DNA of 64,000 nucleotides from Acidobacteriota bacterium (GCA_020439745.1 JAGQSC010000050.1:124001-188000), one strand, 5' to 3'; positions 7,192-41,695 are shown, numbered from the stretch's first letter. Numbers and translations are program-made. The notes: generated by a model not told the origin, from the letters alone.

Positions 7192-8117
7192 GGGCGAACT
7201 CCATGGGTCATCTTCATAAAGACGTCTTCAAGACCTCTGGATTCTTCCTTAAACTCCACGATCGAGAACCCTTGCCTTATAGACATGGCTAACAGATCGG
7301 CGCTTGTGCGACGATCACCGGAGTGTTCCAACCAAACGCGTCCTTGCAACAAGCGAACATCGCTCACATGGGGCAATGTTTTCAGAAACTCAAGCAGCCG
7401 TTCTGCATCATCCAACGTACGAATAGACACTTTGAGGTGGCTGTCTTTATGATCGAGGATATCTGCCAAGCTGCCAGTTTTGAGCAGGCGACCATGATCG
7501 ATCATCAGCACGCCGTCACACATTTCAGTCAACTCGCTGAGTATGTGTGACGACACCAGGATGGCTTTACCTTGATCGGCCAGCACGCGCAGTAGTTCAC
7601 GCAGCTCGACACGCGCCTTAGGGTCCAATCCAGCCGCCGGCTCATCCAAAACCAACACCGAAGGATTGTGCAGTAGAGCCCTTGTTAATGTGACCTTTTG
7701 CTTATTGCCCTTGGACAACCTCGCGACCTCGCGGTGCAGTAATTCAGTCAACCCAGTGAAATCAATCATTCGGTTCAAAGTGGACACACGGTTTGTGCCA
7801 CGCAGACCAGAAGCTCTCGAAAAGAAGTCCAAATATTCGTAGACCGTGATCGACTTCATTTCGGGAAGAGCATCCGGCACGTAGCCCATCTTGTCGTGGC
7901 CCTGTTCCGGGAATTGAATCACCGATACGCCATCTATGGTGACGTCGCCTTTGTCGGGTTCTTCCAAATTGGCCATCATCCGCATCGTCGTTGTTTTTCC
8001 CGCACCATTGGGACCCACAAATCCAAAAATCTGGCCGCTCTCGAATGAAAAGTTCAAATCATCAACGGCGACCAAATCTCCGTACCGTTTGTAAAGCCCA
8101 CAAACCGACACTTGCAT
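7188..8117 (-). CDS. ABC transporter ATP-binding protein
   Basis: 309 residues from the ATG at 8117, which follows the upstream stop (TGAGATG). A GTG 15 bp earlier would add five residues, but the family N-terminus aligns best with 'MQVSVCGLYKRYGD'. Visible motifs are Walker A GPNGAGKTTTM, Q-loop region 'MGYVPDALPEM', ABC signature LSKGNKQKV (the usual LSGGQ weakened to LSKGN), Walker B VLVLDEPAAGLDP, and the switch His in SSHIL. The roughly 80-residue C-terminal extension is typical of CcmA/NatA-like exporters. It energises the adjacent 12-helix permease. Confidence 0.93.
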   Translation of the reverse strand: MQVSVCGLYKRYGDLVAVDDLNFSFESGQIFGFVGPNGAGKTTTMRMMANLEEPDKGDVTIDGVSVIQFPEQGHDKMGYVPDALPEMKSITVYEYLDFFSRASGLRGTNRVSTLNRMIDFTGLTELLHREVARLSKGNKQKVTLTRALLHNPSVLVLDEPAAGLDPKARVELRELLRVLADQGKAILVSSHILSELTEMCDGVLMIDHGRLLKTGSLADILDHKDSHLKVSIRTLDDAERLLEFLKTLPHVSDVRLLQGRVWLEHSGDRRTSADLLAMSIRQGFSIVEFKEESRGLEDVFMKMTHGVRP

Positions 8118-8118
8118 C

Positions 8119-9744: not shown

Positions 9745-9747
9745 GTT

Positions 9748-10776
9748 TCAGGCTTTCATTTGAACGTTTTTGGGAACATCCAACTCAGCGGGTTGAATGG
9801 AATGCACCAAATCCGCAACAATATCGGTGGCCGTCACCTGATCGATACCGGCCTTGTAATTCAATACGAGCCGATGGTTAAGTGCAGCACTGGCCACCGA
9901 ATCCACATCCTCAAAACCAACCGTGGGTCGGCCGTTCAGAAGGGCGTGTGCCCTTGCGCCCGAACTCAGCGCGAAAAGCGCCCGTGGCGACGCCCCATAA
10001 CTGACATATTTGTCCACCAACCGGGCTCCGTCGGCTTGTGGATGACTTTCCTTGACCAATCGGGCGATATATTTCCCTACATAAGGTGAAAGAAACACGC
10101 GGTCCACACAATCAAAGGCCTGCACCAACTGTGTCCCATCCACGGTCTGTTTACAGGGTGGTGTGATGCCCCTCACTCTGGTATTCACCATGTCAGCCAA
10201 GGTTTCCAGGTCGGGTTGATTCACCAACAGCTTGAACATGAAACGATCCATTTGAGCTTCTGGCAAGGGATAGGTCCCCTGTTGTTCGATGGGGTTTTGA
10301 CTTGCTAGAACAAAGAATGGATCTGGCAAGGTGTGCGTCTCGCCGAGCAGCGTCACGGTCTGTTCTTGCATGGCTTCCAATAGGGCTGATTGGGTCTTGG
10401 GCGACGCGCGATTGATCTCATCAGCCAGCAGAATATGGGTGAATACGGGGCCCTTTCTAAACACCATGTTCCGATTACCCCGATCATCTTGTTGCAAGAT
10501 ATGACTGCCGAGAATATCAGATGGCATCAGATCAGGCGTGAATTGGATGCGCTTGAAGTCCATTTGCAAGATGTCACCGAGTGCTTTGACCAAAGCGGTC
10601 TTTCCCAACCCAGGTAGCCCTTCCAACAACACATGTCCGCGACTTACCAAAGCAATCGTAGCCAGTTGATGAAGGTGTTCCCTACCCAACAAAAGCCGAT
10701 CCAACTCGTCGCAGATCAATTGCATGATGCTTTGACCTCGCTCCAGTTCTTCCTTTACCAGTAGCGTTCCATTCAT
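9748..10776 (-). CDS. MoxR-family AAA+ ATPase
   Basis: 342 residues. Walker A is GLPGLGKTA (about 53-61), Walker B is ILLADEINRASPKTQSALLE, sensor 1 lies in 'VLASQNPIEQQGTYPLPEAQ', and the C-terminal lid has 'YGASPRALFALSSGARAHAL'. This is the classical MoxR arrangement. The family acts as chaperone-like ATPases that remodel VWA/DUF58 partners during metal insertion or complex assembly, and all three partner types are encoded downstream in the same operon. The start overlaps the upstream membrane gene as ATGA. Confidence 0.95.
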   Translation of the reverse strand: MNGTLLVKEELERGQSIMQLICDELDRLLLGREHLHQLATIALVSRGHVLLEGLPGLGKTALVKALGDILQMDFKRIQFTPDLMPSDILGSHILQQDDRGNRNMVFRKGPVFTHILLADEINRASPKTQSALLEAMQEQTVTLLGETHTLPDPFFVLASQNPIEQQGTYPLPEAQMDRFMFKLLVNQPDLETLADMVNTRVRGITPPCKQTVDGTQLVQAFDCVDRVFLSPYVGKYIARLVKESHPQADGARLVDKYVSYGASPRALFALSSGARAHALLNGRPTVGFEDVDSVASAALNHRLVLNYKAGIDQVTATDIVADLVHSIQPAELDVPKNVQMKA

Positions 10777-12023
10777 GGTTTTTCCCTCTTAAAGTAGCCC
10801 TGCACCATTTTGCGGTGATGCGGTAACAAGGTTTGACGCTGATGTTCGCGTATCCCGGTATCGGTGACTTCCAATCCTCTGAAATTCGCATGATGTTCAG
10901 CCAACAATTCGGGCGATTCGGTCGTGCGTGCTACAACCTGGCTTCGGTCGGTATCCATTCTTCCGCTGACCATTTCCATTATGGTCTCGGCTTCGATTTC
11001 CCGGGGGCCTTCGCCCAAGACGTCGCGACCTGGTCCGCCACCCAATTCGGAGATCAGACGACAGGCCTCATCAGACCCATCCTTATCGCATCGGCCGAGC
11101 TTGGCCAGCAGATCGCGCAATTCCGCTTGCGACCACTGGACTTGACGAACCATACCTGCATCCGAAAGCATCTTGTGTTTTTCCATGAGTTCTTTGAGGG
11201 CCTGACTCAATTCACCGGATGCGGATTCGGGATCTGTTGCATCCGACAACAATGCTTGAAGACGTTCATGTTTGGAACGCTGATCGCCCCAATGATCGTT
11301 GAATTGTCGCCACAACTCTGAATCACCGGTCATAGGGGTTTGCAGCATAACTTCCATGAGACTCGCCGACGCTGCAGCAGCAGCCAGAGAATCACCAAAT
11401 CCTTGAGCAAATGATTTGAGGTTTGCATCCAGTTGATCCAACTGAAGCCAAAACTGCTGATCGGTTTCATGTGCGGATTGAAGTGCGTCTATGGATTGCT
11501 TGAGTTCTTTTAGCTGATCATCCGTAGCGCCGGCCTGCGCCAATCGTTGGATATCCGCAATCATAGCCGCAGTAAGGTGAGCGATGCTTGCTTGTTGCGT
11601 ATGGGCTCGATGATCGAACCACTCATGTGGCATGACAGAAATCGCACCAAACCAAAGGCAACCCAACAAGGGCCACGCAAAAGACGAAGGACTCAAACGA
11701 ACCTTGCCGATGGGTAAATCGCCCTGATAGCAATTGGCCATCAACAAACCACCAAGTTGGTGTCTGGCATCAAGAAAAGCGGCGATCTGATCGTGATCTG
11801 GTCGTTTCGTTTTCAACCAGCCAACAACACCCACCACGGGCACAAAGACAATGCCCCACCACCCGGGAATGTCTACTGATTGGGTTGCCGCAAACCCAAG
11901 TATGACACCGCCCATCAACCAAGAAACCACCGTCAGATATCGCAAGCTACAAGCGAGCCAGGAAGTAAGACGCAGACGAGCCGCGAAATTGGAGAGATCG
12001 GGATGGGTTTTCACAGATGCCAT
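10773..12023 (-). CDS. Membrane protein with long helical/coiled-coil domain, first gene of Bat/MoxR operon
   Basis: 416 residues. Two N-terminal helices (about 24-45 and 53-69) flank a short loop; a possible third helix ('FAWPLLGCLWFGAISVMP') lies near residue 110. About 250 residues rich in Leu, Gln, Glu and Ala follow, predicted helical or coiled-coil (130-330), then a polar tail. The layout resembles DUF4175-type proteins that accompany MoxR/DUF58 operons in other phyla, but I cannot show homology by eye. It is the promoter-proximal gene. The Shine-Dalgarno sequence before the ATG at 12023 is weak and no convincing promoter was found upstream. Confidence 0.65.
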   Translation of the reverse strand: MASVKTHPDLSNFAARLRLTSWLACSLRYLTVVSWLMGGVILGFAATQSVDIPGWWGIVFVPVVGVVGWLKTKRPDHDQIAAFLDARHQLGGLLMANCYQGDLPIGKVRLSPSSFAWPLLGCLWFGAISVMPHEWFDHRAHTQQASIAHLTAAMIADIQRLAQAGATDDQLKELKQSIDALQSAHETDQQFWLQLDQLDANLKSFAQGFGDSLAAAAASASLMEVMLQTPMTGDSELWRQFNDHWGDQRSKHERLQALLSDATDPESASGELSQALKELMEKHKMLSDAGMVRQVQWSQAELRDLLAKLGRCDKDGSDEACRLISELGGGPGRDVLGEGPREIEAETIMEMVSGRMDTDRSQVVARTTESPELLAEHHANFRGLEVTDTGIREHQRQTLLPHHRKMVQGYFKREKP

Positions 12024-23116: not shown

Positions 23117-24714
23117 AACCCTACCTGAAAGTGATCCCGCTTGGCGGCGTGGGCGATTTTGGTGCCAATGCCACCCTATTTCAAACCGACGACACGTCCA
23201 TTCTGGTGGACTATGGTTTGATGTTCCCACCTGATGCACGCCAACCCGGTGTGGATTATTACGTCCTTGATCCCGATGAACTCTTGGATCGTTTTCCGAA
23301 CTTGGCGGCCATTTTCGTGACCCATGGGCATGAAGATCACATTGGGGGCCTTCCGTTCTTATTGAAGCGGCACCCATTGCCGATATACACCATGCCCTAC
23401 ACAGCTCAATTGATACGCCAGAAAGTGCCATCGGCTACCATTCATGAGGTCACGTTGGACGCTTCTGTGACCGTCGGTGGTTTTGAGGTTCAATTCGTCG
23501 GTGTCACCCATTCCATTGTTCAAGCCTGTGCCTTGGCCATCAAAGCCAATGGCCAGACAGTCGTCCATTCAGGTGATTTCAAGGTGGACGCACTTCCAGG
23601 AGATGACTACCCATTTGAATGGACCCGCTTCAAGCAATTAGGCGAGCAAGGCGTAGACCTTTTGATCATGGACTCCACGAACGCGCACAAGCCTGGTTTC
23701 TGCCCCAGTGACGCCGAAATCGTGGATGCCATTGAGGACCACATTCGTCAGGCAAAGGGACGCGTCTTTTTCACCACTTTCTCCTCGCACATACCCCGAC
23801 TGAAGAAGCTCAAGCATATCGCGCACATGTTGGATCGAAAGATTGTCTTATTGGGCCGCAGTTTTATCCGGCACTACATGGCTAGCTTGGATGCAGCTTA
23901 TTTGGCTCATGCGCCCGACATTTTCGTGTCCGCAGCAGAGGCGGAGACCATGCCGGACGAATCACTGATATTTGTCGTAACTGGTTCACAAGGGGAACGC
24001 GCTTCCGCTTTGGTCAAACTCACCCATGAGACGTTTCAAGGATTGGGATTGAAGGCTGGCGATACGGTCATCTTTTCGTCAAGAACCATCCCTGGTAACG
24101 AGCGAGTTATTGCGCTGTTGATCAGTGAGCTGGAAAACAAAGGGGTGCATGTTGTAACGGCTTCAAAATCACCAGTGCACACTTCTGGCCATGGCTACCG
24201 TGAAGACGCCGCATACCTGTTCGCCTTGACCCAACCCAAACATGTGATCCCCATACACGGTGAATTCAATTTTCTGCTTCGCCACTACCAGTGGCTGAAA
24301 CCACTCCTTAATAGTCGGCAACAGGCACACCTGATTCAAAACGGCGATGTCGTCGTGCTAAAGGCCGGTAGCCTGGAATTAGCTGGACAATCTGGAATAT
24401 CCCTGATTCCGATAGACGGCAATCAGAACCTGCCGTTACCCACCAAGACTATTCGCGAACGCAAAGACATGATGTATAGCGGACTGATCGTCATCAGCGC
24501 ATGTGTCTATCCACAACGGGTACAGGTTCGTTGTCATGGACTCGTGGAGGAACGTGAAGGAGACTTGGCGGACGATTTGGCGGCTCATCTTCATCCACAG
24601 GTCACCTCAGCCCAATGCGGCCTCGCGTTGAAACGCGCCGCACGACGATTTCTTCGGGGTCGGTTTTTTGGCCGACCTAAGATCATTGTCTTGGTCGATG
24701 GACAATTTACCTAA
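23113..24714 (+). CDS. rnj: Ribonuclease J (beta-CASP metallo-beta-lactamase)
   Basis: 533 residues from the ATG that overlaps the rsmA stop (ATGA); an in-frame ATG at 23092 would add seven residues and neither has a good Shine-Dalgarno. The metallo-beta-lactamase motif VTHGHEDHIGG, then HSGDFKVD, the beta-CASP region and the C-terminal 'HTSGHGYREDA' and 'PIHGEF' motifs are all present. A C-terminal beta domain follows 'YSGLIVISACVY'. RNase J acts as a 5'-3' exonuclease and endonuclease in mRNA turnover and rRNA maturation. The length is close to the roughly 550 of known family members. The stop overlaps the convergent moxR stop by 4 bp. Confidence 0.93.
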   Translation: MKPYLKVIPLGGVGDFGANATLFQTDDTSILVDYGLMFPPDARQPGVDYYVLDPDELLDRFPNLAAIFVTHGHEDHIGGLPFLLKRHPLPIYTMPYTAQLIRQKVPSATIHEVTLDASVTVGGFEVQFVGVTHSIVQACALAIKANGQTVVHSGDFKVDALPGDDYPFEWTRFKQLGEQGVDLLIMDSTNAHKPGFCPSDAEIVDAIEDHIRQAKGRVFFTTFSSHIPRLKKLKHIAHMLDRKIVLLGRSFIRHYMASLDAAYLAHAPDIFVSAAEAETMPDESLIFVVTGSQGERASALVKLTHETFQGLGLKAGDTVIFSSRTIPGNERVIALLISELENKGVHVVTASKSPVHTSGHGYREDAAYLFALTQPKHVIPIHGEFNFLLRHYQWLKPLLNSRQQAHLIQNGDVVVLKAGSLELAGQSGISLIPIDGNQNLPLPTKTIRERKDMMYSGLIVISACVYPQRVQVRCHGLVEEREGDLADDLAAHLHPQVTSAQCGLALKRAARRFLRGRFFGRPKIIVLVDGQFT

Positions 24715-25637
24715 ACGGGTGATGGCAAAGCATCGAGAATACTCTCAAAAAGGGCGCGGCTCGGTTCGTCGTCCAGCGTTCCCAACGTGTTTTTTGCCAA
24801 TATGCGATGGCCGAAGATAAGTGGTGCCAGTTCACGAACATCGTCCGGTACGACAAACGTCCTCCCTCGCACCAAGGCCAACGCTTTCACGGCCCGGTAC
24901 ATAGCCTGGCCACCTCGTGGGGACACGCCGACTCGAATATTTTCGTGGCGTCGCGTCGCGTCTACGATCTGATAGATATAATCCAGCACTTCGTCCGCCA
25001 CTGCGACGTCGTTCGAAATCCCCTGAAGCTGCATCAAATCATCGACATGGCTCACATGTATCATCTGATCAGACGATTCGTATTCGCCTTTGATGACCGA
25101 TTTCTCGTCTTCAGCTTCGGGATAACCCAATCTCAGTCGCATCAGAAATCGATCCAGTTGTGACTCAGGCAAAGGAAATGTACCGTGGTGGTCTTTGCTG
25201 TTCTGCGTCGCAATCACAAAGAAGGGCCTGGGGAGTTGAAAGGTTTCGTTGTCATGGCTGATCTGTCCTTCATGCATGGCTTCGAGCAAGGCACTTTGGG
25301 TTTTTGGGTTGGCCCGATTGACCTCGTCGGCCAACAGCACGTTGGTGAAGATTGGTCCGCGGTTAAATTCGAATCGTTCTTCTTTCTGCCGATAAATAGT
25401 GACACCGATTAAGTCGCTGGGAAGTAGGTCCGAAGTAAATTGAATGCGCTTAAATGCCACGTCAAAACACGAGGCCAAGCTCTTTGCCAGCGTTGTTTTT
25501 CCCACACCAGGTACATCTTCAATCAACAAATGGCCACCCGCCAGCAAACAGGCCAGTGCATACTCGAGTTTGTCACTTTTGCCCAGCAACCTCGCGCCAA
25601 GGGCCTTTAGAGATCGCTGGATAAGTGTCTGGGGCAT
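24711..25637 (-). CDS. Second MoxR-family AAA+ ATPase (orphan)
   Basis: 308 residues. Walker A is GVPGVGKTTLAKS, Walker B is VLLADEVNRANPKTQSALLE, followed by 'VIATQNSKDHHGTFPLPESQ' and the lid 'VGVSPRGGQAMYRAVKALAL'. It is closer to the generic MoxR type than the operon copy at 9748-10776 and has no DUF58 or VWA gene beside it. It diverges from uppS (128 bp gap) and converges on the RNase J gene. Its partner must be elsewhere, or it serves the proteins of the first cluster. Confidence 0.93.
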   Translation of the reverse strand: MPQTLIQRSLKALGARLLGKSDKLEYALACLLAGGHLLIEDVPGVGKTTLAKSLASCFDVAFKRIQFTSDLLPSDLIGVTIYRQKEERFEFNRGPIFTNVLLADEVNRANPKTQSALLEAMHEGQISHDNETFQLPRPFFVIATQNSKDHHGTFPLPESQLDRFLMRLRLGYPEAEDEKSVIKGEYESSDQMIHVSHVDDLMQLQGISNDVAVADEVLDYIYQIVDATRRHENIRVGVSPRGGQAMYRAVKALALVRGRTFVVPDDVRELAPLIFGHRILAKNTLGTLDDEPSRALFESILDALPSPV

Positions 25638-28643: not shown

Positions 28644-28720
28644 TGGTACGGACGTAGGGATTCGAACCCCAGACCTTCTGGTTCGTAGCCAGATGCTCTA
28701 TCCAACTGAGCTACGTCCGC
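28644..28720 (-). tRNA. tRNA-Arg, anticodon ACG
   Basis: A 77 nt cloverleaf including an encoded CCA end. The acceptor stem GCGGACG pairs with CGTCCGT (one G-U at the first pair), the D arm has the AGCTCAGTTGGAT consensus, the anticodon stem TCTGG/CCAGA encloses the loop CTACGAA with anticodon ACG, and the T loop is TTCGAAT. A34 is expected to be edited to inosine, reading CGN codons. A strong promoter precedes it and a terminator follows it, so it is a monocistronic gene on the minus strand. Confidence 0.97.
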
Positions 28721-28920: not shown

Positions 28921-31551
28921 ATGAAAACAGCTACCGATCAACTATTTCTGGAACGCGCATTACATGAGGCGAAACGCTATGGCGGTGACACCTGGGTATT
29001 TCTGCGCGAATGGGTCCAAAACAGTCGCGACGCAGGTGCCGGTGAAGTCGCGTTGCGCGCGGCTGTGGATATGGACTCTGAATGGGTGGAATGCATGGAT
29101 GACGGCGTGGGTATGTCCGACGCCGAGATGCGCCAGTATCTTTTCCGTCTGTATGCGTCCAGCAAAGAACAAGATGCCCAATCCATCGGTTTCTTTGGTG
29201 TTGGCTTCTGGTCGATTTTGTTGTTTGAGCCGAGCTGGATCTTAATTGAGAGTTGCAAGGGCGATCAGGCAACCGCCTATCGACTCGATTGTGAAACATT
29301 TGAAATAGAGTCCGTGGAGCCATCCCTGTCCTCTCACGGATTTCGTGTCAAGCTACATCGGCGCCGTCGCTTTGCCCGGAGTCGAGATCTGATTGACGAG
29401 CTCTCCGTCGCTTTGATTCGATTTGCGGGCCCTATTCGGCCCCTGCCACCCCAGCTTTCACTCAGATTGACAGTCAACGGATTCCCTGTCAATCAACCGC
29501 TTAAGCAACCTCAGTTTTTAGCCACCTCACTAGTTTTGGAAGGTGCCAGAGGCTATGTAGGTTTCGGAACACGGCCCTGGGTAAGGCTCTACAAAGGCGG
29601 CATCTTGTTGCGCGAGTTAACCGATCTCCACGAACTATTACCAAGGCGTGGGCGCAAGTATGCGCCCAAGGCTCCTGGCGTTTATGCACAAGTCGCAGTG
29701 GATGATGACAACCTGACCGTGTTAATGGACCGCAAGAGTGTGTTTGAAGACGATCACCTTGTTAGTGTTTGCGAAGCGTGCGAAGGCACATTGGTTCAAT
29801 TGGAAAAACAGCTCATTCGTTCCCTTTTCCCACTTAACTGGACCAATCGTAGGTTGCGTATTTGGGATCATCTCCCCAAGAAGATACTGGTCGTCAGCAT
29901 TGCATTGATGGTCATGCTCATGCTTATCGTTGCTCTTTGGCCTGCCAAGGCACCCTACCCCCCTCGACCAGAACTGCATTCCTCGAGCCTGGACACGGTT
30001 TTCGATCATTGGCAGCAATCCACCATTGACCAGGCTGGTCGTCCATCGTCATGGCAATATCAGTCGTCAGCCCCAACCGGTCGCCTTGTTGTGGGCCACC
30101 TTACAGATTTTGACCCGATGTTTGGACTTCAACCACCCGCAAAAAGAGCCATAGCGCCCTATCCCCAACTGCCCGGTGCGGCCGAACCGTTGAGACTTAC
30201 CTTAGGTGTTTCTGGTCAAAACGCGCCAACGCTTTTACCCGTTCCGTCAGGCATGGGTGTGGTTGCAGGCTCTGTAACCTTTGAGGGTCGGCCGGTGCAT
30301 GAACTTGGCGTGACCGCCGAAGGCATGCCACTTGTGGACCTGGAGCCCGTCAAGGCTGGAACACTCACCTATGAGATCACTCAGGCCACCGTGGAACCAA
30401 TCGTCGACAGTCGTTACCTCGAAACAACCGAGTTCCCCCCTCAAATAGCTGCGCAGTTGGACGAACTATCGAGACTTACCCCGGCTGAACGCGTTGAGGG
30501 TGTCAAACGGCTCACCTATTTGCACCTCGAATTTGCTCAAGACGAACAAAGTGCTCAACAATTTATCAGTTCTGACTTGGAATGGGTCAGCAAGACGTTG
30601 CAGATAGGCAAGGGTGATTGCGATGTCATGAACGGCTTAGCTGTACTTATGTTGCGTGCCGTAGATATCCCGGCATTTGTGACCGTAGGGTTGCCCGAGG
30701 ACGACGGCGATATGGGTGCACTGCATGCATGGACACAGTTTCACGACGGGACATGGCAGATGGTCGATTTTTCTCATGGTCGATCGCAATCTACAAACGG
30801 ACCATCCCCGACGCCAGCCTTGGGACAGCAATCGGCACCACTAACCTGGGCATGGCAAATACCCGTTGGCATCCTGATCATTGGAGGTGCGGTGTGGTTA
30901 TGGCGAAAGCGCTCTCGACGCAATTCGGAGCTCCCCGATCAAGCCGGAGAATTACTAGCCCAAATTATTGAGGACGAGTCATCGAAGGAATCTGAGCTTG
31001 GGAAACTGGCTCATTACGTCCCTGCGTTGCGAACGATTCATGGCGGTAAGCTCAGTCTACGCGAGATCGAGAAATTAGCCTTGAGGCACACACCCATCCT
31101 TGCAGACGCAAAAGACCCACGACTTTCGGTCCTCCACCCGTCGACAACCATCCTCGATCGAACCTGTCCATTTGTCGCCAAACTCATGCCCATTCTGCCC
31201 AGCATGCTAACGCTTGACCAGTTGGAGCGTTTTCAAGGTGCGGGTCCAATACCGGACGTACTCAAGCCTGTAGGCGACGCAATTCAAAGACATGACAAGA
31301 GCTCGAAACTGGTCGTGCTCGATCACATTCGATCCTCGACGGAGGCGCGAATCCGCTTCCTGGATGGTTGGCAACAATATCTCGCCATCCCAGCCCGAGC
31401 GGAATGGTTGCTTCGTGCCATCGACCATCATGCACATGAGCCCTTGAAAGCGACGATTTCAGCGGCCGTCGAACTCCTATCTCGTCAAGTGACTTATCGC
31501 GGTGCCATGGACGCCATCATGGCAGATGTCGTAAAGGAACAGCTGGCATGA
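28921..31551 (+). CDS. Hsp90-type GHKL ATPase fused through the membrane to a transglutaminase-like domain
   Basis: 876 residues; ATG preceded by AGAAGGGAA. Residues 1-110 carry a Bergerat ATP site very like Hsp90: N box REWVQNSRDA (about 29-38), G1 MDDGVGM, G2 IGFFGVGFWS. A second beta-rich domain runs to about 310, resembling the middle domain of GHKL proteins. A helix (about 320-341) follows a basic stretch. Residues 342-640 hold a transglutaminase-like fold with KGDCDVMNG (Cys near 567), LHAWTQF (His near 601) and MVDFSHG (Asp near 614). A second helix (about 643-662) is followed by WRKRSRR and a roughly 210-residue helical tail. Charge flanks predict the ATPase and tail in the cytoplasm and the transglutaminase outside. 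The stop overlaps the next gene (ATGA). I know no described protein with this order; function is unknown. Confidence 0.8.
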   Translation: MKTATDQLFLERALHEAKRYGGDTWVFLREWVQNSRDAGAGEVALRAAVDMDSEWVECMDDGVGMSDAEMRQYLFRLYASSKEQDAQSIGFFGVGFWSILLFEPSWILIESCKGDQATAYRLDCETFEIESVEPSLSSHGFRVKLHRRRRFARSRDLIDELSVALIRFAGPIRPLPPQLSLRLTVNGFPVNQPLKQPQFLATSLVLEGARGYVGFGTRPWVRLYKGGILLRELTDLHELLPRRGRKYAPKAPGVYAQVAVDDDNLTVLMDRKSVFEDDHLVSVCEACEGTLVQLEKQLIRSLFPLNWTNRRLRIWDHLPKKILVVSIALMVMLMLIVALWPAKAPYPPRPELHSSSLDTVFDHWQQSTIDQAGRPSSWQYQSSAPTGRLVVGHLTDFDPMFGLQPPAKRAIAPYPQLPGAAEPLRLTLGVSGQNAPTLLPVPSGMGVVAGSVTFEGRPVHELGVTAEGMPLVDLEPVKAGTLTYEITQATVEPIVDSRYLETTEFPPQIAAQLDELSRLTPAERVEGVKRLTYLHLEFAQDEQSAQQFISSDLEWVSKTLQIGKGDCDVMNGLAVLMLRAVDIPAFVTVGLPEDDGDMGALHAWTQFHDGTWQMVDFSHGRSQSTNGPSPTPALGQQSAPLTWAWQIPVGILIIGGAVWLWRKRSRRNSELPDQAGELLAQIIEDESSKESELGKLAHYVPALRTIHGGKLSLREIEKLALRHTPILADAKDPRLSVLHPSTTILDRTCPFVAKLMPILPSMLTLDQLERFQGAGPIPDVLKPVGDAIQRHDKSSKLVVLDHIRSSTEARIRFLDGWQQYLAIPARAEWLLRAIDHHAHEPLKATISAAVELLSRQVTYRGAMDAIMADVVKEQLA

Positions 31552-32753
31552 ACATCCTCGACATTGATTTGGATGCAGCGCTGAACAAGATCTCCCAACG
31601 GCAGACCCTGAACCAGGTCCATTACTTGGTCCAACTGGTTCGTGATGCGTTGACCCGTGCACCCTCATTGATACGCATCGAACAGAATGAAGATCAACTG
31701 CTCGTCTATCACGATGGGGCGGCAATGGGTGATGATGAGTGGCTTCTCTTGCATGCAACCACGAAGAGCCACGAACCCTCAAAACGCACACAGGCACTCA
31801 GTGAATTGGAAGATCGCATGGGTGTGGCGTTATTGAGTATGTGTCTTAGCGAAAATCCCGCCAAGATTCAGAGCGGCAACTTCATCATGCACGCCCGTGA
31901 TGGTGTACCTTCGTTTTCATCACTGAGCTCAGCCTATGCTGGTTTTGAGTTGAACTTGACGCGGCCTGCCAAGTGGGCCTCCGAGGAACGAGAGGAACTA
32001 GTCTATTTTTGCAGCCGAAGTGATGTTCCAATCTACTTGAATGGCACGACCCTGGACCCCAGCCAGGATGATGTAGCTTGCATCCTTGGAGCGACTCAAA
32101 CCGATGAATCTGGTGCCGTTGACACAGGATTACTATCAGAAGGTACGGTAAGTCGCACATCCTATTTCAAACAGGGAATCCGGTTTGGTGTCAAATACGG
32201 CCAGAGTTCCGATGGGAGTATCACAGCCAGTACATGGAATTCCCACTATTTGTCCTTTGAGCCTCACTTCAGTCATTCAATCAAAACAGGTGACCATGCG
32301 ATTGGATCGCTTGTCGGTCACCTCTACCGCAACATTCCCGACTATTACGACGATCTAGCCATCGACGAACAAGAGCGCGTTCGCAATCTTCTGATTCGAT
32401 TTCGGATTCCAGCCTGGGAAAAGATATTCGGGAAACTAAAACTGTTTGACATGGGGACACAACCCAGACAATTGAGCCTCAAAGACTTGCGGCGTCTTCA
32501 AAAAAACTTTGGTTACTTACCCTTTCAATCCCATGACCATGCCATTCTCGACTTGCCAACCCTCAATCGCGACGAAATCGCATTCCTTCGCCGTTTGGGA
32601 TTCAACTTGAGAGACGTTCCGGCACGCGCCCATCCACTACGACCCAATCGCCGTGACCGCACTTGTTGGGTTTCGCAATTGGAACAAGCAGGTATTTACA
32701 CGGTTGAAGAACTGGCTGCGATTGCCGAGCGTCTCGAAACAAAACCCATTTGA
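31548..32753 (+). CDS. Soluble protein with degenerate GHKL-like fold, partner of the upstream ATPase
   Basis: 401 residues, translationally coupled to the gene before it. The first 100 residues follow the same spacing as the upstream ATPase site but with key residues lost: LVQLVRDALT replaces the N box (the Asn is gone), VYHDGAAM stands for DDGVGM, and EDRMGVALLSM for GFFGVGF. ATP binding is therefore doubtful. A middle beta-rich domain is followed by a C-terminal segment 'LEQAGIYTVEELAAIAERLE' that looks like a helix-hairpin-helix. No membrane segment is present. Homology to GHKL is my reading of motif spacing, not proven. It is likely an obligate partner or regulator of the 876-residue protein. 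Confidence 0.6.
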   Translation: MNILDIDLDAALNKISQRQTLNQVHYLVQLVRDALTRAPSLIRIEQNEDQLLVYHDGAAMGDDEWLLLHATTKSHEPSKRTQALSELEDRMGVALLSMCLSENPAKIQSGNFIMHARDGVPSFSSLSSAYAGFELNLTRPAKWASEEREELVYFCSRSDVPIYLNGTTLDPSQDDVACILGATQTDESGAVDTGLLSEGTVSRTSYFKQGIRFGVKYGQSSDGSITASTWNSHYLSFEPHFSHSIKTGDHAIGSLVGHLYRNIPDYYDDLAIDEQERVRNLLIRFRIPAWEKIFGKLKLFDMGTQPRQLSLKDLRRLQKNFGYLPFQSHDHAILDLPTLNRDEIAFLRRLGFNLRDVPARAHPLRPNRRDRTCWVSQLEQAGIYTVEELAAIAERLETKPI

Positions 32754-33778: not shown

Positions 33779-34879
33779 TTATGCGCCTCGTACGGCTCGT
33801 CGGAAAAGTGCGGCTGCACTGCGCAAATCAGTCGCCGCCCGCATGAGACCACCGCCAATCAAGTGTATCAGATCGTCCCCATATTCGCGGCTCATTTCGC
33901 CAATTCGGTCCAGAGTCATTCCTCCTGCAGGTACAGGGAACGAGGGTTTATAGGCGCCATAGGGCTCGCGTAGAGCGGCATTGATGGCATGACACGTATG
34001 GGTATCGAACACAAAACGACCACCCACATTTGGGTAAATCGATGCGTCCGCCCCTAATGACCGAAACAGTTGTCCCAAGACCACTCCGGCGGTCATACCG
34101 TGGTCGGGTGCGCTGAACATCCCTCCTGCTAATGAGGGATGTGCGAGCACTGCAAAGTCCCCTCGCCTTGCAATTTCTGCCATCATGTCCCATCCAACCA
34201 ACCAAGGACACACCATGACGATTTTGATTCCCTGGCTTAAGCAAAGTTCGTAGTCGCGTTCGAATCGAGTTATGGGTGGCATGAAGTTGGGTGCGTAAAG
34301 CGCGTGGCGATTCGTGGTGTCGTTGGCGCGAATGACTGCCTGCTGTACTTTCGGTACTCGTTCGGCGAACGGCGCATATCGCTGATTGGCAAGACCGTGA
34401 TCGTCTTTGATGATGTCCATGCCGCCACAAGCCAAATCGAAAGCCATGGTTGCAAACTCATCCGAAGTTCGTCCCATGGGTTTTAGGGCAGTACACACCA
34501 GCGCACCTTGATGTACTTCTGTTAACTTGCGCATCCCATCGATGCCAAAACTTGGACCCGGGAACACACCATCCAAACCCTCGATTTGGGTAATCAAGAA
34601 ACCCCGTTTCATGGAGATGTTGCCAAACAACAAGTTCAAGAGCTGAGCAGCTTCGCCTCCTGTCGTGTCCAGACTGTAGGAAATCACCGCATGAGCACGG
34701 TTCTCGTCAACATCATTGATTTGTTCAATTCGCCCTACGACCTGTGTCAAGAGTATATCTGGCACCTGATCCAGGGGCAGTTCGGCAGTTTGTTCTAATG
34801 CAATTCCTTGCGCAATTTGACGGGCGTCATCGCCAGGTCCCAGAGACAAACAGAAATGAACCTTGAGCCGGGTTTCCAT
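33779..34879 (-). CDS. RuBisCO-like protein (form IV), likely methylthioribulose-1-phosphate isomerase type
   Basis: 366 residues, ATG overlapping the speE stop (TAATG). The RuBisCO large-chain fold is shown by 'FPGPSFGIDGMRKL', 'TALKPMGRTSDEFA' and the active-site region GGMDIIKDDHGLANQ, where the carbamylated Lys and Asp are kept but the usual KxDE Glu is His. 'LAHPSLAGGMF' and C-terminal 'YPNVGGRFVFD' also fit. True CO2 fixation is unlikely because of the altered motif and short length. With a cupin downstream and polyamine genes upstream it best fits the RLP that isomerises 5-methylthioribulose 1-phosphate to methylthioxylulose 5-phosphate. An OiaX-like decarboxylase is an alternative. 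Confidence 0.8.
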   Translation of the reverse strand: METRLKVHFCLSLGPGDDARQIAQGIALEQTAELPLDQVPDILLTQVVGRIEQINDVDENRAHAVISYSLDTTGGEAAQLLNLLFGNISMKRGFLITQIEGLDGVFPGPSFGIDGMRKLTEVHQGALVCTALKPMGRTSDEFATMAFDLACGGMDIIKDDHGLANQRYAPFAERVPKVQQAVIRANDTTNRHALYAPNFMPPITRFERDYELCLSQGIKIVMVCPWLVGWDMMAEIARRGDFAVLAHPSLAGGMFSAPDHGMTAGVVLGQLFRSLGADASIYPNVGGRFVFDTHTCHAINAALREPYGAYKPSFPVPAGGMTLDRIGEMSREYGDDLIHLIGGGLMRAATDLRSAAALFRRAVRGA

Positions 34880-35757
34880 TAAGTCAATGGCCGCATAAAG
34901 GGAGCCAACAGTCCCTTCTGACGCCTGGGTAGTGCAAATGCGGCATGATGAATGCCTGGGTCATAGTATTTGGTCTCAAGCTGTAGCTGATCCCAGCGCT
35001 CTTGCTGGAAATCATTGAGTGGATGCGCATTCTTGGAAGCAAATGAAAAACTCCACAACCCGCCCGGATAAGTGACGTTGTGGTAGTTATAAAAATTGAC
35101 GGAGGGGAATACACCAGCAAGAATCTCGGCCAATGCCACTTGCCAATCGGGTTCATAATAAGGAGATTCGCCCTGCGAGACGACGATTCCGTTTTCATTC
35201 AGCACACGACGCACGTCCTCGTAAAACTCTGTCCCAAAGAGCGGAGCAGCAGGACCGATGGGGTCCGTGGAATCGACAATGATCACGTCGAAGCGTTGAT
35301 CGGTGTTCTTCACGAAAGCAACGCCATCCTCAATACGTACCGTGACTCTCGGGTCATCCAACGCACTAGCTGTACTGGGTAAGAATTCTTTGGACACCTC
35401 AACCACCAGTGCATCGATTTCCACCAATACGGCTTGCTCAACCGATGGATGGCGCACGACTTCGCGTATGGTGCCTCCATCACCGCCGCCAATCACCAAT
35501 ACTCGCTTGGGGTTGGGATGGCAGAATAACGGAACATGGGCAATCATTTCATGGTAGACGTGTTCGTCGCGTTCCGATAGCATCACCAGCCCATCGATGA
35601 ACATCATGCGACCATGGCCATAGGTGTCGACTATGTCCACCTGTTGGAAATCGCTCTTACCTGTGAACAGCGATTTCTTGACGCGAAATCGCTGTCCTAA
35701 TACGCCCTTATGAACTTCCTCAATCCAGCATTGTGTCAACGAGTCAGGCACTTGCAT
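34879..35757 (-). CDS. speE: Spermidine synthase
   Basis: 292 residues, GGAG before the ATG. An N-terminal beta strand domain precedes the aminopropyltransferase Rossmann core: 'VLVIGGGDGGTIREVVRHP' with VEID acidic loop, and the catalytic 'DVIIVDSTDPIGPAAPLF'. It transfers aminopropyl from decarboxylated SAM to putrescine and releases methylthioadenosine, which the RLP and cupin downstream would help to salvage. It sits 28 bp after speD. Confidence 0.95.
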   Translation of the reverse strand: MQVPDSLTQCWIEEVHKGVLGQRFRVKKSLFTGKSDFQQVDIVDTYGHGRMMFIDGLVMLSERDEHVYHEMIAHVPLFCHPNPKRVLVIGGGDGGTIREVVRHPSVEQAVLVEIDALVVEVSKEFLPSTASALDDPRVTVRIEDGVAFVKNTDQRFDVIIVDSTDPIGPAAPLFGTEFYEDVRRVLNENGIVVSQGESPYYEPDWQVALAEILAGVFPSVNFYNYHNVTYPGGLWSFSFASKNAHPLNDFQQERWDQLQLETKYYDPGIHHAAFALPRRQKGLLAPFMRPLT

Positions 35758-35785
35758 CGGAACTCCTGGTCATAGTATTGCTTGT

Positions 35786-36727
35786 TTATCGGCGTGAAAG
35801 TCGCAACCCACTTCGCACCGAGGCGAACTGCACGCGATAGCCGCACGATAGTGAATGCTCCACGCGATGACTGACAGATTCACATTGTCTCAACAGGCAG
35901 CTTCCATCCTCGCGTTCGAACAACATGACCAGACAGTGCTCAGGTCGAAATATATCCAATACCTTGTCAACGAGATTGGTAATGTCGCCTTCCAAATAGA
36001 AATTCGTTTCAAAGCTGGCATAGGAGCAATGGGGTTGAGGTGTCACGTGGACGGTGTAATAAAGATCGTTGCGAATGGCGTTCAGCGAGTATCCGTAAGG
36101 TTCAAAAACAAAACCGTCGGTTTCAAAGCCGTCGAACACCGAAGTCAGCCCCGATTTTTGGCCCACGGTGGCTGCATCAACATCATCCTGGGCATAAAAC
36201 ACACGCGAATCATCGGGCGACAGGCCATGCATCAATATTTCAAGTGTTGTGTCTCTTGGGTGGGGCTTGTAGGTCGACAGCATGTGGTAGAGACGAATGT
36301 GGTGGCCATCAGGATCACCAAAAAAGTATGCCTCTCCGGGCATTAACTTGTTCAACAGCGCAACGTCTGCTTCAAAATCTGTCGGTTGATCTTCGGGGAG
36401 TTGTTCATTCTTGCGTTCATAAATAAACAATTCTACATCTTGGAGTTTGATGAAGCTAAACACATGTTGCACCGCGCGAATCAGCGTCGTTTGTCCGCAC
36501 GTAATCATGATCACACGATGGTCATACACGAACAGCGAGGATTCTGATAACAGATAGGCATCGCAGTCGTCGTTTGCGATCACCGAAAGAACATGTGCGC
36601 CCGCCGATGCAACCACTTGTTTCCATTGGGCTCCAAATTGTCTTAAGGATGGATGACCTTGCCTGACAACCAATTCAAATTTCTTTTCCGAGCCCTCAAA
36701 AAACAATGTCTTAAGCACCCCCACCAA
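35786..36727 (-). CDS. speD: S-adenosylmethionine decarboxylase proenzyme, eukaryotic type
   Basis: 313 residues from a TTG at 36727; a GTG at 36718 with GGTGGGG in front is a good alternative. Motifs of the animal and plant enzyme are unmistakable: FFEGSEKK (human FFEGTEK, Glu8/Glu11), the self-cleavage site YLLSESSLFV (human YVLSESSMFV, pyruvoyl from Ser68), ITCGQTTL (Cys82), 'TLEILMHGLSP', GYSLNA (Ser229) and TVHVTPQPHCSYASFETN (His243). Typical bacterial SpeD is only about 120-260 residues and lacks these. It makes the aminopropyl donor for SpeE. First gene of a four-gene operon with a strong promoter. Confidence 0.95.
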   Translation of the reverse strand: MVGVLKTLFFEGSEKKFELVVRQGHPSLRQFGAQWKQVVASAGAHVLSVIANDDCDAYLLSESSLFVYDHRVIMITCGQTTLIRAVQHVFSFIKLQDVELFIYERKNEQLPEDQPTDFEADVALLNKLMPGEAYFFGDPDGHHIRLYHMLSTYKPHPRDTTLEILMHGLSPDDSRVFYAQDDVDAATVGQKSGLTSVFDGFETDGFVFEPYGYSLNAIRNDLYYTVHVTPQPHCSYASFETNFYLEGDITNLVDKVLDIFRPEHCLVMLFEREDGSCLLRQCESVSHRVEHSLSCGYRVQFASVRSGLRLSRR

Positions 36728-36803: not shown

Positions 36804-38204
36804 TCAATGCTCATGTGCCAGGAAAAGACTGGGAATGGCATTTGGTCCGTCGGAACTAGGCTTCAACATGACAGTACGGCTTGAAAACTCCTCTTTCTTG
36901 AGTTGGTCACCCAAGTTCCATTCTAATTTACGCACGCTTTCATTTCGAGATTGGGGAATGGAGATCAGTCGCACGTGATCGCCTGAGTTTTCCAGAACAA
37001 CCGCCACAAAAGAAGCATCGATCGCTGTCAAGGTCGTCACCGGGATGATATTGAAAGCTTTTGAAATCACCATGACAAAAGCCTTGTCCACGGTGGGGTC
37101 ATTGGAAGCAAGTAGCATTTGGATGCACTGGTAGAAAGGTCGGGGTTTAGGGCTGAGTTTCCAAGCCTCGGCCACATGATTTACGGCACGCAACAGGCGC
37201 GATACGGGCAGCGGAGATTCTTCCTGATTCGCCTTATGTCGCGGGGTCTGATAGGCCAGTACGGTGCGGTAATAAAGGGACCGATTGACAAATCTACTAT
37301 CGAGTAGCCAGCCGACCGCTCTATGCGGTAACTCAGCGCGAAACTCTTCCAGTCGTTCACTTTGACGAATAGATGGTGGCACCAATTGCTCACCGAGACA
37401 CTGGAACAAGGCAGCAAGACCAAAATCGATTTGTGCTTGTCGTCCCAGATTGAGGAAACGAGCAATGGCCAAAATCATGATCACGCCGTAAAAGACGCGC
37501 CCTTTTGTACGATCATCGACAGGTGAAGCCATCAACGCATGGATGATCTGAGGATACTGCTCATTGACGCGAATCAGATTCAGCAACACTCGATAGCCTA
37601 CGTTAATCCTCGGTGTTTCTTGATTCTGAATCTGACGATCCATGTCGTTGATGAACATGGCGAGTTTGGCAGCATTGCGAATGGCAAACCGGCGTGCATT
37701 TTCTTCGTCCCTTATGCCGGTCATCATGGTTTCCACATTGCTAAGTCTGATGGCCGTAATGTAAGGACTGTGACGCCTTCCCAAGCCCTGCATGATTGCG
37801 GCCTCACCGCGTGCCTTGTCGTCCAGAATTGATTCTCGCAAGGCAAACATGGTTTTGATCAGTGTTTTAGGGTCCCAACATTCCTCGTGGAAGATCAAAC
37901 CACCTATGTCGGCACCTGCAAAAAAATTCGACAAGAACGCGACACTTTCAATCAGACCGGAATCGATGAACACCCTACTGTCTTCAAGAAAGACCTGATG
38001 CGCATTCACGTGAATCGAACAGCCTCCCACCATTCGGTATGATTCCTTGATGTAACTGGCTAGCGTTTGGGCTAGGCGCACAAAAATCTGGTTATTGGGT
38101 TCAAACAGGTCCGCATTGCGAAACACCTGCTGTACATGAGAGAGAATCGAACGACCAAGCACCTGGATTCGTTCAGCATGAGGGTCTTTCTCTTGAGTAA
38201 TCAT
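36804..38204 (-). CDS. Degenerate HD-GYP-like protein
   Basis: 466 residues, soluble, start overlapping the kinase stop (ATGA). The C-terminal 250 residues follow the HD-GYP layout: 'FYGVIMILAIARFLNLGRQA', then 'LAALFQCLGEQLVPPSI' where a true enzyme has AALLHDIGK, then 'RLLRAVNHVAEAW' and RPFYQCIQML. The HD and GK residues are replaced by QC and GE and no HHE or GYP motif remains, so it should not hydrolyse c-di-GMP. The N-terminal 190 residues resemble the helical lead domain of such proteins. By context it is a partner of the PilZ-domain kinase. The family assignment is by motif spacing. Confidence 0.65.
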   Translation of the reverse strand: MITQEKDPHAERIQVLGRSILSHVQQVFRNADLFEPNNQIFVRLAQTLASYIKESYRMVGGCSIHVNAHQVFLEDSRVFIDSGLIESVAFLSNFFAGADIGGLIFHEECWDPKTLIKTMFALRESILDDKARGEAAIMQGLGRRHSPYITAIRLSNVETMMTGIRDEENARRFAIRNAAKLAMFINDMDRQIQNQETPRINVGYRVLLNLIRVNEQYPQIIHALMASPVDDRTKGRVFYGVIMILAIARFLNLGRQAQIDFGLAALFQCLGEQLVPPSIRQSERLEEFRAELPHRAVGWLLDSRFVNRSLYYRTVLAYQTPRHKANQEESPLPVSRLLRAVNHVAEAWKLSPKPRPFYQCIQMLLASNDPTVDKAFVMVISKAFNIIPVTTLTAIDASFVAVVLENSGDHVRLISIPQSRNESVRKLEWNLGDQLKKEEFSSRTVMLKPSSDGPNAIPSLFLAHEH

Positions 38205-41200
38205 CGCTGACCATCGATCATAGATTTGCAGTGGTTAATCAAATCTCGGTTTCCAAGTAGTTTCTTCGCCATCTTTTCCACGACTCTCTTGGCATCGGGT
38301 TGATTGGATTTCCAAAGTACCTCAGCTGCTAATTTTCGATCCTCCAGTTCAGATTTACCTTGGCCAAACGAGCTCTGATCATTGACCATATCTGTGAGGA
38401 ATTGCAGCCCGGTCTGATCCTTACCCGCCAACTGAATCACCATGGCGCGTTCGTCTGGCTGCAGCGAGACGAACGCTTCCAATTTCATGAACTCTCTCAA
38501 GATCTGCATCAACTTGGGCTTCGCTAACTGAGACAGGACACGCCAGGCATAGCGTCTTGATTCATCAAATCGGGGATTCTGATCGCGCCCAACCTTGACG
38601 ATCAAATCGAGAAAGTCGTGGTTCTGCATCCCTGCGATCATGCGAACCAAGCGAACACGAGTCTGAGGTCCTTTGTGTTTGAGCCAAGATTCAAAAACAT
38701 TGCGTGTGAGGCGATCGGGAATACGCGCAAATCCGTTCAGCATCACCATGGCCTTTTCATCACTCAATTCCATGCTCAGCCGAATCAAGGGCGTTAGGGT
38801 TGCACCACAAGCCATCACCGTTAGTTCGCTGAGAAATATCAAGCGCCATTCCTCGGTTTCCAACTGGAACCGATTGAAGAGGATTTTTACTGCAACACTT
38901 GGCAGCAAGTACTCGCAAATACCAAATATGGCATCTTTCAAATTGCGATCGACCGTAAAAAACTTATCGATCAGTTCGTTGAGAAACTGCTCATCAGAGA
39001 GACGTTCCTTTAACTTCAATAGGCGTTTGTGCATTTCCCGGGGATCAGATTCCGGCACTTCCTGGGACCAGGCATCCAGATAAGCAAACACCCGGGTCAC
39101 GGAGGCCAGGTCGTTTTCTGTCAAACATGAATAGACGATGTCTTCAATTACCGCAAAATGACGCTCAAAAATCTCGTTGTCTTTCTCGTCTCGAAGATGG
39201 CCCAACATAATGTCGATTGCCTTGTGCCTGACAACGGCATCAATTTCCTTCGTGAGGAAATGCTGTAACTTATGAATGGGCATGTTTTGATAGGCGCTCG
39301 CTAACTGGTCATGAAGCTCTAATGCTTGCGAAATCGGAACGCTATCGGCCATTGCCGTCTCCAGATTCCAAGCTGCACGGTAAAACCATTCGTCTTGAGT
39401 CTTCTTGATTCGAGCGAGGCTCTGTTCGTCCTCATAAAACGAATCCACATACTCAAAATCTATGAACTGGAAAACGCACTGAAACAGGATGGTTACACAA
39501 TCCTCTTCTTGATTCTTACGATCGTTGACGTAGCGAAAAAGCCTGATCAGGAATTGCTCTATTTCCTCGCGCGGCATGCCACGAAAGAACATTAGTTTTC
39601 GAATGCCATCGCGGTATAGGTTAAAGCAAAAGGCGTTTTCCTTTTGGTCTTCTTCCCAAATGGCTTCATGGATAAACAGCATGCGCATGGATTCCACATG
39701 GATGTCCAAGCGCTCATGTTTGCCAAAATATCGATCGAAACGGGAGTACAACTCTAATGTCGCTTGCTTTACCAAGTCGTGCGTTTCTGGATAAGTGCCG
39801 ATGGTGCGATACGTTTTTCCAAACTGGATAAACAGGTGACGCACCATATCGATCGATTCTTGATCGAAAGCTGTTTGGGCTTCTACCTCAAGATCACCGC
39901 GTTCCAGGAACAGTGCCACCTTTTCAAGTTCACTCACTAGTTCGCGTGCAGATTGAAAGCGCTCTTCTTTCTTCTTGGCAAGACACTTCATCACCATGTC
40001 GTTCAGGTTTTGAGAAATCTGGGCATCTTGCTCAATCAAGGGTGCTGGTTGTTTATGCAGATGCATGGCGATGGTTTCCACCCAGCGCTCGCCTCTGAAT
40101 GGAGGTTGACCCAACAACATCTCATAGGTCATGACGCCCAGCGAATAAAGGTCCGATCGTCCATCGATTCCTTCTGCAACAACTTGCTCAGGTGAAGCAT
40201 AAATGGGCGTACCCATAAAACCTCTCGTTTTGTCTTGCTCATCTCCTCCTTCAACCGTTGGGTCATCGGACTCCTGTCTTGCCAGGATCTTCGCGATACC
40301 AAAATCGGTCACCAAGACATGGCGATCCAATGTGACCATAATGTTTTCTGGCTTGATGTCTCTGTGAACCACGCCTTTGTCATGGGCATATGCCAGCGCC
40401 TTGCCGACAGCTGACACCCAGGTCAACGTGCGTTTTGCGTCCAACTTCCCTTCGTTCTTAAGGTATTGAGCGATTGAGTGGCCCTGAATGAACTGCATGG
40501 TGAAGTAAACAATGCGATCTTCGTAATTGGCCAACAACTCAAGCGGGAAATCCAATTTGTTCTCATACTCGCCTGGCGTCACTTCGCCCACTTCATAAAC
40601 CGTGGCAATATTGGGATGGTCGAACTGCGCAGCTATTTGCGCTTCAGCCACAAATCTTGAGCTCAATTTGGCATCGCGAGAGAATTTTGGTGACAGAACC
40701 TTCATCGCGACTTCGCGATTGAGCGCCAAATCGCGGACCAGAAATACGTCGGCAAAACCACCCTTCCCCAGTTTCCTCACAAACTTGTACTTCTGCTTGC
40801 TCAGCAAACCGAGGCCGCGCCCTGTCAAAGCAGGCGCAGATGTCATTACCTCGGTGCCGGTTGTACCTTCAGAGTTTCCGGTCTGCCTCATCGTAGCGTC
40901 ATGTTCTTGCTCGCGCCGTAACTGGTTAAAGAAGAGCTTGAATTGGTCATCGGCACGTACGACACGCAAGCCCAATCGCAAACCGATTCCGTCGGGGCGC
41001 TCAACGACCTGTCGTTCCCTTTCCACGGCGTCTACCTGAAAACGATCGCCATCATCCAGAAACACTAAAATGCGTACCTGATCAAATGCTGGCATTTCCA
41101 TGGGTACATAAACACCAATACCCCTTTGGCTCACATCGTGAACCTTGCCAACAAACGTGTTTTCGCCAATTCTCAATTTCGCATCCGCCGAATACAAGAA

Positions 41201-41695
41201 TCGCTTGTCGCTGCGGTGTTCCCGCTTGGTGGATTGCCCCTCTGCTGGGGTTTGATGGCCCAGCTGTTCCGTTGCGCCAGTCGTCCTACCCACGCTACGT
41301 ACCTGTGCGTCTGTTTTCTCTGGGGGCGACTCCATTGCTGCCGCTTGTTGTTTGACCAACCGAACCATGTGTTCAAAAAACGATGCCGGGTTTTGGTTGG
41401 CACCCGTAATTTGCAAGCCCAAGCGCGCAAATTGTTGCGGGCCAATGGTCACATCACTGCGGTTGGCAACGTGTACCTGAAAGGCATAGTCCCTAGGTGC
41501 CCGAATTGAAAACAGCAAGACCAACTGATCGACCACAGGAAGGTGCGGTGTCGTCAAGACACAAAAACCACGGGTACTGAAGTCCGCAGTCTTCGCTGCG
41601 AGCGTCCGGTCACCCACCTGGATTTCTAGGTCGTGCGTGAGATCGTAACGCTTGCGCGCCCTTTTCTCGGTAGCTCCGGCCGGTTCATATCCCAA
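38201..41695 (-). CDS. Ser/Thr protein kinase with two N-terminal PilZ domains and a long C-terminal repeat region
   Basis: 1164 residues, no obvious membrane segment. PilZ 1 (about 12-115) has RARKR and DFSTRG; PilZ 2 (about 160-265) has RSDKR and DVSQRG, the RxxxR and DxSxxG motifs that bind c-di-GMP. The kinase (about 300-600) is complete: glycine loop GKGGFADV, Lys in VAMKVL, HRDIKPEN near 444, DFGIAK, 'GTPIYASPEQV'. The C-terminal 560 residues are helical with HEAT-like periodicity. The probable role is a protein kinase controlled by c-di-GMP; substrates are unknown. It lies 86 bp after a U32 gene. Confidence 0.9.
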   Translation of the reverse strand: MGYEPAGATEKRARKRYDLTHDLEIQVGDRTLAAKTADFSTRGFCVLTTPHLPVVDQLVLLFSIRAPRDYAFQVHVANRSDVTIGPQQFARLGLQITGANQNPASFFEHMVRLVKQQAAAMESPPEKTDAQVRSVGRTTGATEQLGHQTPAEGQSTKREHRSDKRFLYSADAKLRIGENTFVGKVHDVSQRGIGVYVPMEMPAFDQVRILVFLDDGDRFQVDAVERERQVVERPDGIGLRLGLRVVRADDQFKLFFNQLRREQEHDATMRQTGNSEGTTGTEVMTSAPALTGRGLGLLSKQKYKFVRKLGKGGFADVFLVRDLALNREVAMKVLSPKFSRDAKLSSRFVAEAQIAAQFDHPNIATVYEVGEVTPGEYENKLDFPLELLANYEDRIVYFTMQFIQGHSIAQYLKNEGKLDAKRTLTWVSAVGKALAYAHDKGVVHRDIKPENIMVTLDRHVLVTDFGIAKILARQESDDPTVEGGDEQDKTRGFMGTPIYASPEQVVAEGIDGRSDLYSLGVMTYEMLLGQPPFRGERWVETIAMHLHKQPAPLIEQDAQISQNLNDMVMKCLAKKKEERFQSARELVSELEKVALFLERGDLEVEAQTAFDQESIDMVRHLFIQFGKTYRTIGTYPETHDLVKQATLELYSRFDRYFGKHERLDIHVESMRMLFIHEAIWEEDQKENAFCFNLYRDGIRKLMFFRGMPREEIEQFLIRLFRYVNDRKNQEEDCVTILFQCVFQFIDFEYVDSFYEDEQSLARIKKTQDEWFYRAAWNLETAMADSVPISQALELHDQLASAYQNMPIHKLQHFLTKEIDAVVRHKAIDIMLGHLRDEKDNEIFERHFAVIEDIVYSCLTENDLASVTRVFAYLDAWSQEVPESDPREMHKRLLKLKERLSDEQFLNELIDKFFTVDRNLKDAIFGICEYLLPSVAVKILFNRFQLETEEWRLIFLSELTVMACGATLTPLIRLSMELSDEKAMVMLNGFARIPDRLTRNVFESWLKHKGPQTRVRLVRMIAGMQNHDFLDLIVKVGRDQNPRFDESRRYAWRVLSQLAKPKLMQILREFMKLEAFVSLQPDERAMVIQLAGKDQTGLQFLTDMVNDQSSFGQGKSELEDRKLAAEVLWKSNQPDAKRVVEKMAKKLLGNRDLINHCKSMIDGQR

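Follow-up and report, generated by a model that had tools for sequence, protein, structure and literature searches.

The known proteins of the Hsp90 family (HtpG, TRAP1, and Hsp90) are soluble homodimers, in which a Bergerat-type ATPase domain, a middle domain, and a C-terminal segment follow each other in this order, and ATP closes the N-terminal domains and moves the middle domains. TgpA of Pseudomonas aeruginosa (PA2873) is an inner-membrane protein with six helices, which holds a transglutaminase (TGase) domain in the periplasm between them; the periplasmic domain acts as a transglutaminase in vitro, and the gene tgpA, part of a conserved operon, appears to be essential in P. aeruginosa (PMC3507681). 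A further relative to be considered is sacsin, a giant single chain with DnaJ and HEPN domains (PMC3710099) and with neither TGase domain nor membrane segment. Here, we describe a pair of plus-strand genes in a 64,000-nucleotide stretch of an Acidobacteriota bacterium (GCA_020439745.1 JAGQSC010000050.1:124001-188000; hereafter the window, to which the coordinates refer): namely, P1 (28921..31551; 876 residues), very probably an Hsp90-type ATPase chain interrupted by a membrane helix, a TGase-like domain, and another membrane helix, and P2 (31548..32753; 401 residues), very probably a soluble pseudo-Hsp90. Both are open frames, and the P2 start lies over the P1 stop with an overlap of 4 bp (ATGA), as an earlier note made from the sequence of this stretch had said. 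By their residues, and for P2 also by the predicted fold, the two proteins fall in the wider Hsp90/GHKL group, and their architecture has no precedent as far as we know; indeed, no report joining Hsp90 or GHKL proteins with a membrane transglutaminase was found in the literature searched, the search being not exhaustive.

The three Hsp90-like Bergerat boxes quoted in the earlier note are all present in P1: REWVQNSRDA (residues 29-38; 29005-29034), DDGVGM (residues 60-65; 29098-29115), and GFFGVGFWS (residues 90-98; 29188-29214). In the alignment of the P1 family, which has 46 members, most of them at 21-32% identity, the residues E30, N34, D37, D60, G62, G64, G90, G93, and G95 are without any change (46/46), so that the catalytic Glu, the Mg-binding Asn, the G1 Asp, and the glycine boxes of a Bergerat ATP site are all in place, and the active-site motifs were intact also in all 19 further genomes checked from the order containing Nannocystis pusilla. 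Pfam HATPase_c_3 matches P1 above its cut-off (E 2e-10), and the assignment to Hsp90-type ATPases, which the earlier note had proposed, is borne out by comparison of profiles with hhalign: the first half of the chain (residues 1-308; 28921..29844), composed of the GHKL ATPase domain and the first part of the middle domain, matches HtpG with E 3e-20, and HtpG is also the best match in the PDB.

The resemblance to Hsp90 continues on the far side of the membrane segments when soluble relatives, which we call type B (L111-L124; mostly myxobacterial Hsp90-like proteins of ~540 residues), are used as a bridge. Type B aligns over the full length with HtpG of Escherichia coli (2iop, residues 16-607; E 9e-17), and residues 22-308 and 699-876 of P1 are collinear with residues 19-297 (E 6e-45) and 321-530 (E 7e-10) of type B, respectively. 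The latter part of P1 (31015..31548), described in the earlier note as a cytoplasmic helical tail, is better read as the second part of the Hsp90 middle domain with a C-terminal-domain-like tail, and it also matches the tail of P2 (E 2.5e-8); the comparisons with the P1 tail score 36-91, and reversed or column-shuffled controls score 20 at most. The direct match of the P1 tail to HtpG is weak (E 4.7e-4), and its identity as Hsp90 rests on the type-B bridge. Between the two collinear parts, ~390 residues of P1 (a membrane helix, the TGase-bearing periplasmic region, a second membrane helix, and a linker) replace ~23 residues of type B, and the insertion point, as read off the alignment of type B with HtpG, falls approximately at HtpG residues 380-412, within the middle domain. 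We are thus highly confident that P1 is one Hsp90 chain with a helix–TGase–helix segment inserted in its middle domain. Through the type-B bridge, the chain has the middle and C-terminal domains of Hsp90 in their order; with two membrane helices within it, it is not the soluble chain by which Hsp90 is also defined. The Pfam HSP90 model (PF00183) had no match among 15 members of the P1 family, nor does P2 match it, and the genome of the window encodes a classical HtpG separately. The N-terminal ATPase of P1 also resembles models of sacsin (Pfam SACS in 15 of 15 members, E down to 2e-6; NCBIfam E 1e-10, which is below the cut-off). A relation to the Tiamat defence protein TmtA was considered and rejected, as the match to the TmtA models, which are 1060-1780 residues long, covers only ~90 residues within the ATPase region.

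A TGase-like domain with a Cys-His-Asp triad, likewise proposed in the earlier note, is found in the inserted region: Pfam Transglut_core (PF01841) matches P1 above the cut-off (E 1e-8) and matches all the 37 family members tested, with its core in P1 at 30565-30768. The triad residues Cys567 (30619-30621), His602 (30724-30726), and Asp616 (30766-30768) are unchanged in 46/46 homologues, which chance would hardly produce, and the spacing between Cys and His is 35-36 in all of them. The periplasmic domain of P1 is hence a putative Cys-His-Asp enzyme of the transglutaminase-like superfamily. Because both the ATPase and the triad sites are invariant even though most members are only 21-32% identical, the P1 family probably makes use of both ATP and thiol chemistry. 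The domain lies between two membrane helices, at residues 322-340 (29884..29940; hydropathy 2.99) and approximately at residues 641-662 (30841..30906; hydropathy 1.47, lower than in most homologues; family mean, 2.37). Over the 46 homologues, the mean net charge in 20 residues is +2.85 before and +0.37 after the first helix, and +0.30 before and +2.67 after the second; since these charges are positive-inside, residues 342-640 (29944..30840) are predicted to be outside, in the periplasm, which agrees with the fusion across the membrane suggested earlier. In this placement of the TGase domain P1 is most like TgpA, yet as judged from sequence it is not a TgpA: P1 has two helices instead of six, an Hsp90-type ATPase of its own, and no constant neighbour in place of the conserved operon, and a TgpA_N domain is detected in only one of 37 P1 family members (E 0.017). 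Among solved structures, PDB 6g49, which is a protein-glutamine gamma-glutamyltransferase, comes nearest in sequence to the TGase region (E 1.4e-5).

While P2 alone gave nothing credible against Pfam, NCBIfam, and PADLOC, comparison of profiles relates it to P1 (E 1.4e-13) and, in a full-length alignment, to type B (E 3e-24). The AlphaFold model of P2 (predicted local distance difference test, pLDDT, 88.7; predicted template modelling score, pTM, 0.81) folds as Hsp90 when it is compared with the PDB by Foldseek, the best 50 matches all being Hsp90 and the top one being TRAP1 with nucleotide (E 4e-13). By this model, P2 has the N-terminal and middle domains of Hsp90; the ATP-Mg site is not intact. 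Indeed, in the degenerate N-box LVQLVRDALT (31626..31655), the equivalent of the Mg-binding Asn is lost, and none of the 42 homologues in the P2 alignment has Asn at this position. Relatives in Aminicenantes retain DNGSGM, and some of them match HATPase_c_3 (E down to 4e-9). The earlier note called P2 a decayed GHKL protein; its site is degenerate as stated, but P2 is not eroding, and with the same confidence as for P1, we regard it from alignment and model as an ancient and consistently kept pseudo-ATPase, that is, a catalytically dead paralogue of Hsp90. The HhH-like ending noticed earlier in P2 (32628..32750) did not hold up as a feature of the family: it is peculiar to the protein of the window, is predicted with low pLDDT, and is missing in the homologue of the same genus, and longer relatives have an Hsp90-like tail there. 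P2 members of ~500 residues carry this Hsp90-like C-terminal tail, and most P2s keep it. A match of P2 to the YafO toxin was also set aside (E 0.008, below the cut-off, in one member only).

P1 and P2 are inherited together well beyond the genome of the window, so that the proposal in the earlier note stood up to one of the refuting conditions named there, a pair not conserved in other genomes. The same pair is found in a genome of the same genus (42% identity), and another genome of the family also has it, with P1 split over two contig ends and different surroundings. A scan of genomes with the single P1 sequence found no relatives, and the family alignment was needed; with profiles, 16 out of a sample of 396 Acidobacteriota genomes proved to have homologues covering both ATPase and TGase, and the scan of 84,980 species yielded over 50 P1 loci of full length. 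These lie in metagenome-assembled genomes titled Aminicenantes, Holophagae, Thermoanaerobaculales, Vicinamibacteria, Deltaproteobacteria/Myxococcota, Fermentibacteria, and Eisenbacteria, and several of the phyla with the pair are little studied. Of the 29 genomes in the order containing N. pusilla, 23 or more have P1, a count that includes partial matches reaching past the ATPase or scoring far above type-B proteins, and P2 follows P1 in every fetched locus with room; the genes of both proteins have apparent frameshifts in the assembly of N. pusilla Na p29. Among 56 full-length P1 loci, P2 was found in 52, three end with the contig, and one (L081) is without P2, so that P2 lies directly 3′ of P1 in all but one of the 53 contigs with room. 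In most loci, the overlap between the P2 start and the P1 stop is 4 or 8 bp. In L081, short open reading frames resembling a PIN-domain toxin–antitoxin pair stand after P1 in place of P2. The distances among P1 sequences correlate with those among P2 sequences at r = 0.84, compared with 0.79 between the two domains of P1 and a permutation maximum of 0.21. No constant third neighbour gene was found over 32 groups; Ser/Thr kinase reading frames near P1 in six of the 32 were at varying places and distances and were treated as chance. From the pairing, the co-divergence, and the lack of a constant third gene, P1 and P2 appear to be self-sufficient at the level of the locus. A mobile origin was also dropped, as there were no phage matches, plasmid matches listed only HtpG, and viral contigs had two short GHKL matches.

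Type-B proteins are paired, too: in Myxococcota/Deltaproteobacteria, often several times per genome, an active Hsp90-like gene is followed by that of a pseudo-Hsp90 of 1080-1890 residues with repeated middle-domain-like segments (e.g., L120:6932-8533 in N. pusilla and L117:6908-13250), and we found no description of such pairs. Both genes are homologous to those of P1 and P2, whereas membrane segments and the TGase insert are absent and the partner is far longer; the large partner also recalls the repeated Hsp90-like modules of sacsin-type GHKL proteins. The N-terminus of this partner aligns better with P2 (E 1e-24) than with P1 (E 6e-17), which suggests that the pairing of an active with a dead protein is older than the TGase insertion, a suggestion drawn from similarity rather than from a rooted tree.

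Starting from what the sequences and the P2 model show, namely, which domains are present, where the insert lies, that P1 keeps both active sites whereas P2 has lost its own, and that the genes are paired, we infer that P1 and P2 may form a membrane-anchored two-protein machine, in which an ATP-driven clamp of an active and an inactive arm gates a periplasmic enzyme; the chances for and against this reading appear to us about equal. The two halves of P1 on the cytosolic side would both be tied to the membrane through the interruption of the middle domain, and P2, soluble and catalytically dead, would pair with P1 as the other arm. The clamp would close and open as P1 binds and hydrolyses ATP, closure would move the two middle-domain parts of P1 and hence the attached helices relative to each other, and the shift of the helices would switch or position the Cys-His-Asp enzyme, which might act on proteins or peptides of the cell envelope. 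Several points weigh against such a clamp. We know of no Hsp90 precedent in which a pair of single helices does the gating; the charge pattern is an average, and only 29 of the 46 proteins, taken one by one, show it on both sides; P2 of the window and ~7 others have no C-terminal tail that could serve dimerization; and the Aminicenantes contig L081 (P1 at 601-3558) has 1.6 kb downstream without P2.

Mere co-localization, in which a membrane-tethered chaperone or holdase and a constitutive periplasmic TGase are fused for assembly or stoichiometry, would be in line with the poor transmission of motion by single helices and with the activity of TgpA-type periplasmic TGase domains in vitro without any ATPase (PMC3507681). 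The insert, nonetheless, lies within the middle domain and not at an end of the chain, and all 46 homologues retain the domain order along with the two active sites, which would be unexpected for a loose tether; we hence regard this explanation as unlikely. Much the same holds for a signal running in reverse, where the TGase-fold domain binds or processes a ligand in the envelope and the helices set the Hsp90 clamp acting on cytosolic clients: the topology would be the same, and histidine kinases, which also belong to GHKL, combine a sensor outside with an ATPase inside, but the invariant triad with its nearly constant spacing points to a domain that catalyses and does not just sense, and no regulator or client gene is linked over the 32 groups, so that we find it improbable. 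Given that all well-known Hsp90s are homodimeric and that P2 in the lineage of the window has no C-terminal tail, P1 might alternatively form a classical homodimer, with P2 as a separate regulator or a co-chaperone-like client adaptor; P2, however, shares fold and domain order with the P1 arm, the tail is kept in most P2s, and the gene order and overlap are conserved, all of which make the homodimer a poor candidate. A defence or conflict module, with a GHKL sensor triggering an envelope-damaging enzyme, is very improbable, since, for all the patchy occurrence in Acidobacteriota, the presence of GHKL proteins in defence, and the PADLOC match of TmtA to the ATPase region, P1 is near-constant in one order and co-inherited with P2, and neither a defence-gene neighbourhood over the 32 groups nor P1/P2 in phage and plasmid records was seen.

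As to the surroundings, a tRNA-Arg (28644-28720) precedes the pair and rplI comes after it. The insertion between the dxr region and rplI pointed out in the earlier note is common only to the window and the genome of the same genus, and other contexts are found elsewhere. A lone MoxR-type AAA gene (24711-25637, minus strand) is convergent with an RNase J gene, their ends overlapping by 4 bp, and is also kept in the same-genus genome; a link to P1/P2 was dropped, as this gene is absent from the conserved neighbours. Furthermore, the window has on its minus strand an aerotolerance-like MoxR cluster (826-12023) composed of MoxR (9748-10776), DUF58 (5028-5855), BatA-like (3414-5027), and vWA (826-3597) genes with an ABC ATPase in between; a stretch (33779-36727), also kept in the same-genus genome, with a RuBisCO-like protein adjoining a spermidine-synthase-like gene and an S-adenosylmethionine decarboxylase (PF01536, E 5e-73); and a protein of 1164 residues that combines PilZ domains and a Ser/Thr kinase domain with a HEAT-like region (38201-41695). 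The 11.8-Mb genome of another family member encodes one more Hsp90-like GHKL protein, whose C-terminal part is long (L006 of G003, 253-2274, minus strand); a gene of ~460 residues lies next to it.

In conclusion, P1/P2 could be the first membrane-spanning Hsp90, an active/pseudo heterodimer in which cytosolic ATP drives a periplasmic cross-linking or proteolytic enzyme via two helices, and which would have arisen when a helix–transglutaminase–helix cassette entered one of the two subunits of an earlier, soluble Hsp90 gene pair that survives in Myxococcota; this composite is put forward tentatively, as a little less probable than its opposite. The cultured members in the order of Nannocystis make the system testable, and the soluble type-B pairs offer a natural comparison. 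The Hsp90 chaperone known so far is soluble and homodimeric, and P1/P2, if the proposal is true, would show its clamp serving as a trans-membrane motor or switch and suggest how enzymes of the ATP-free periplasm get powered or controlled.

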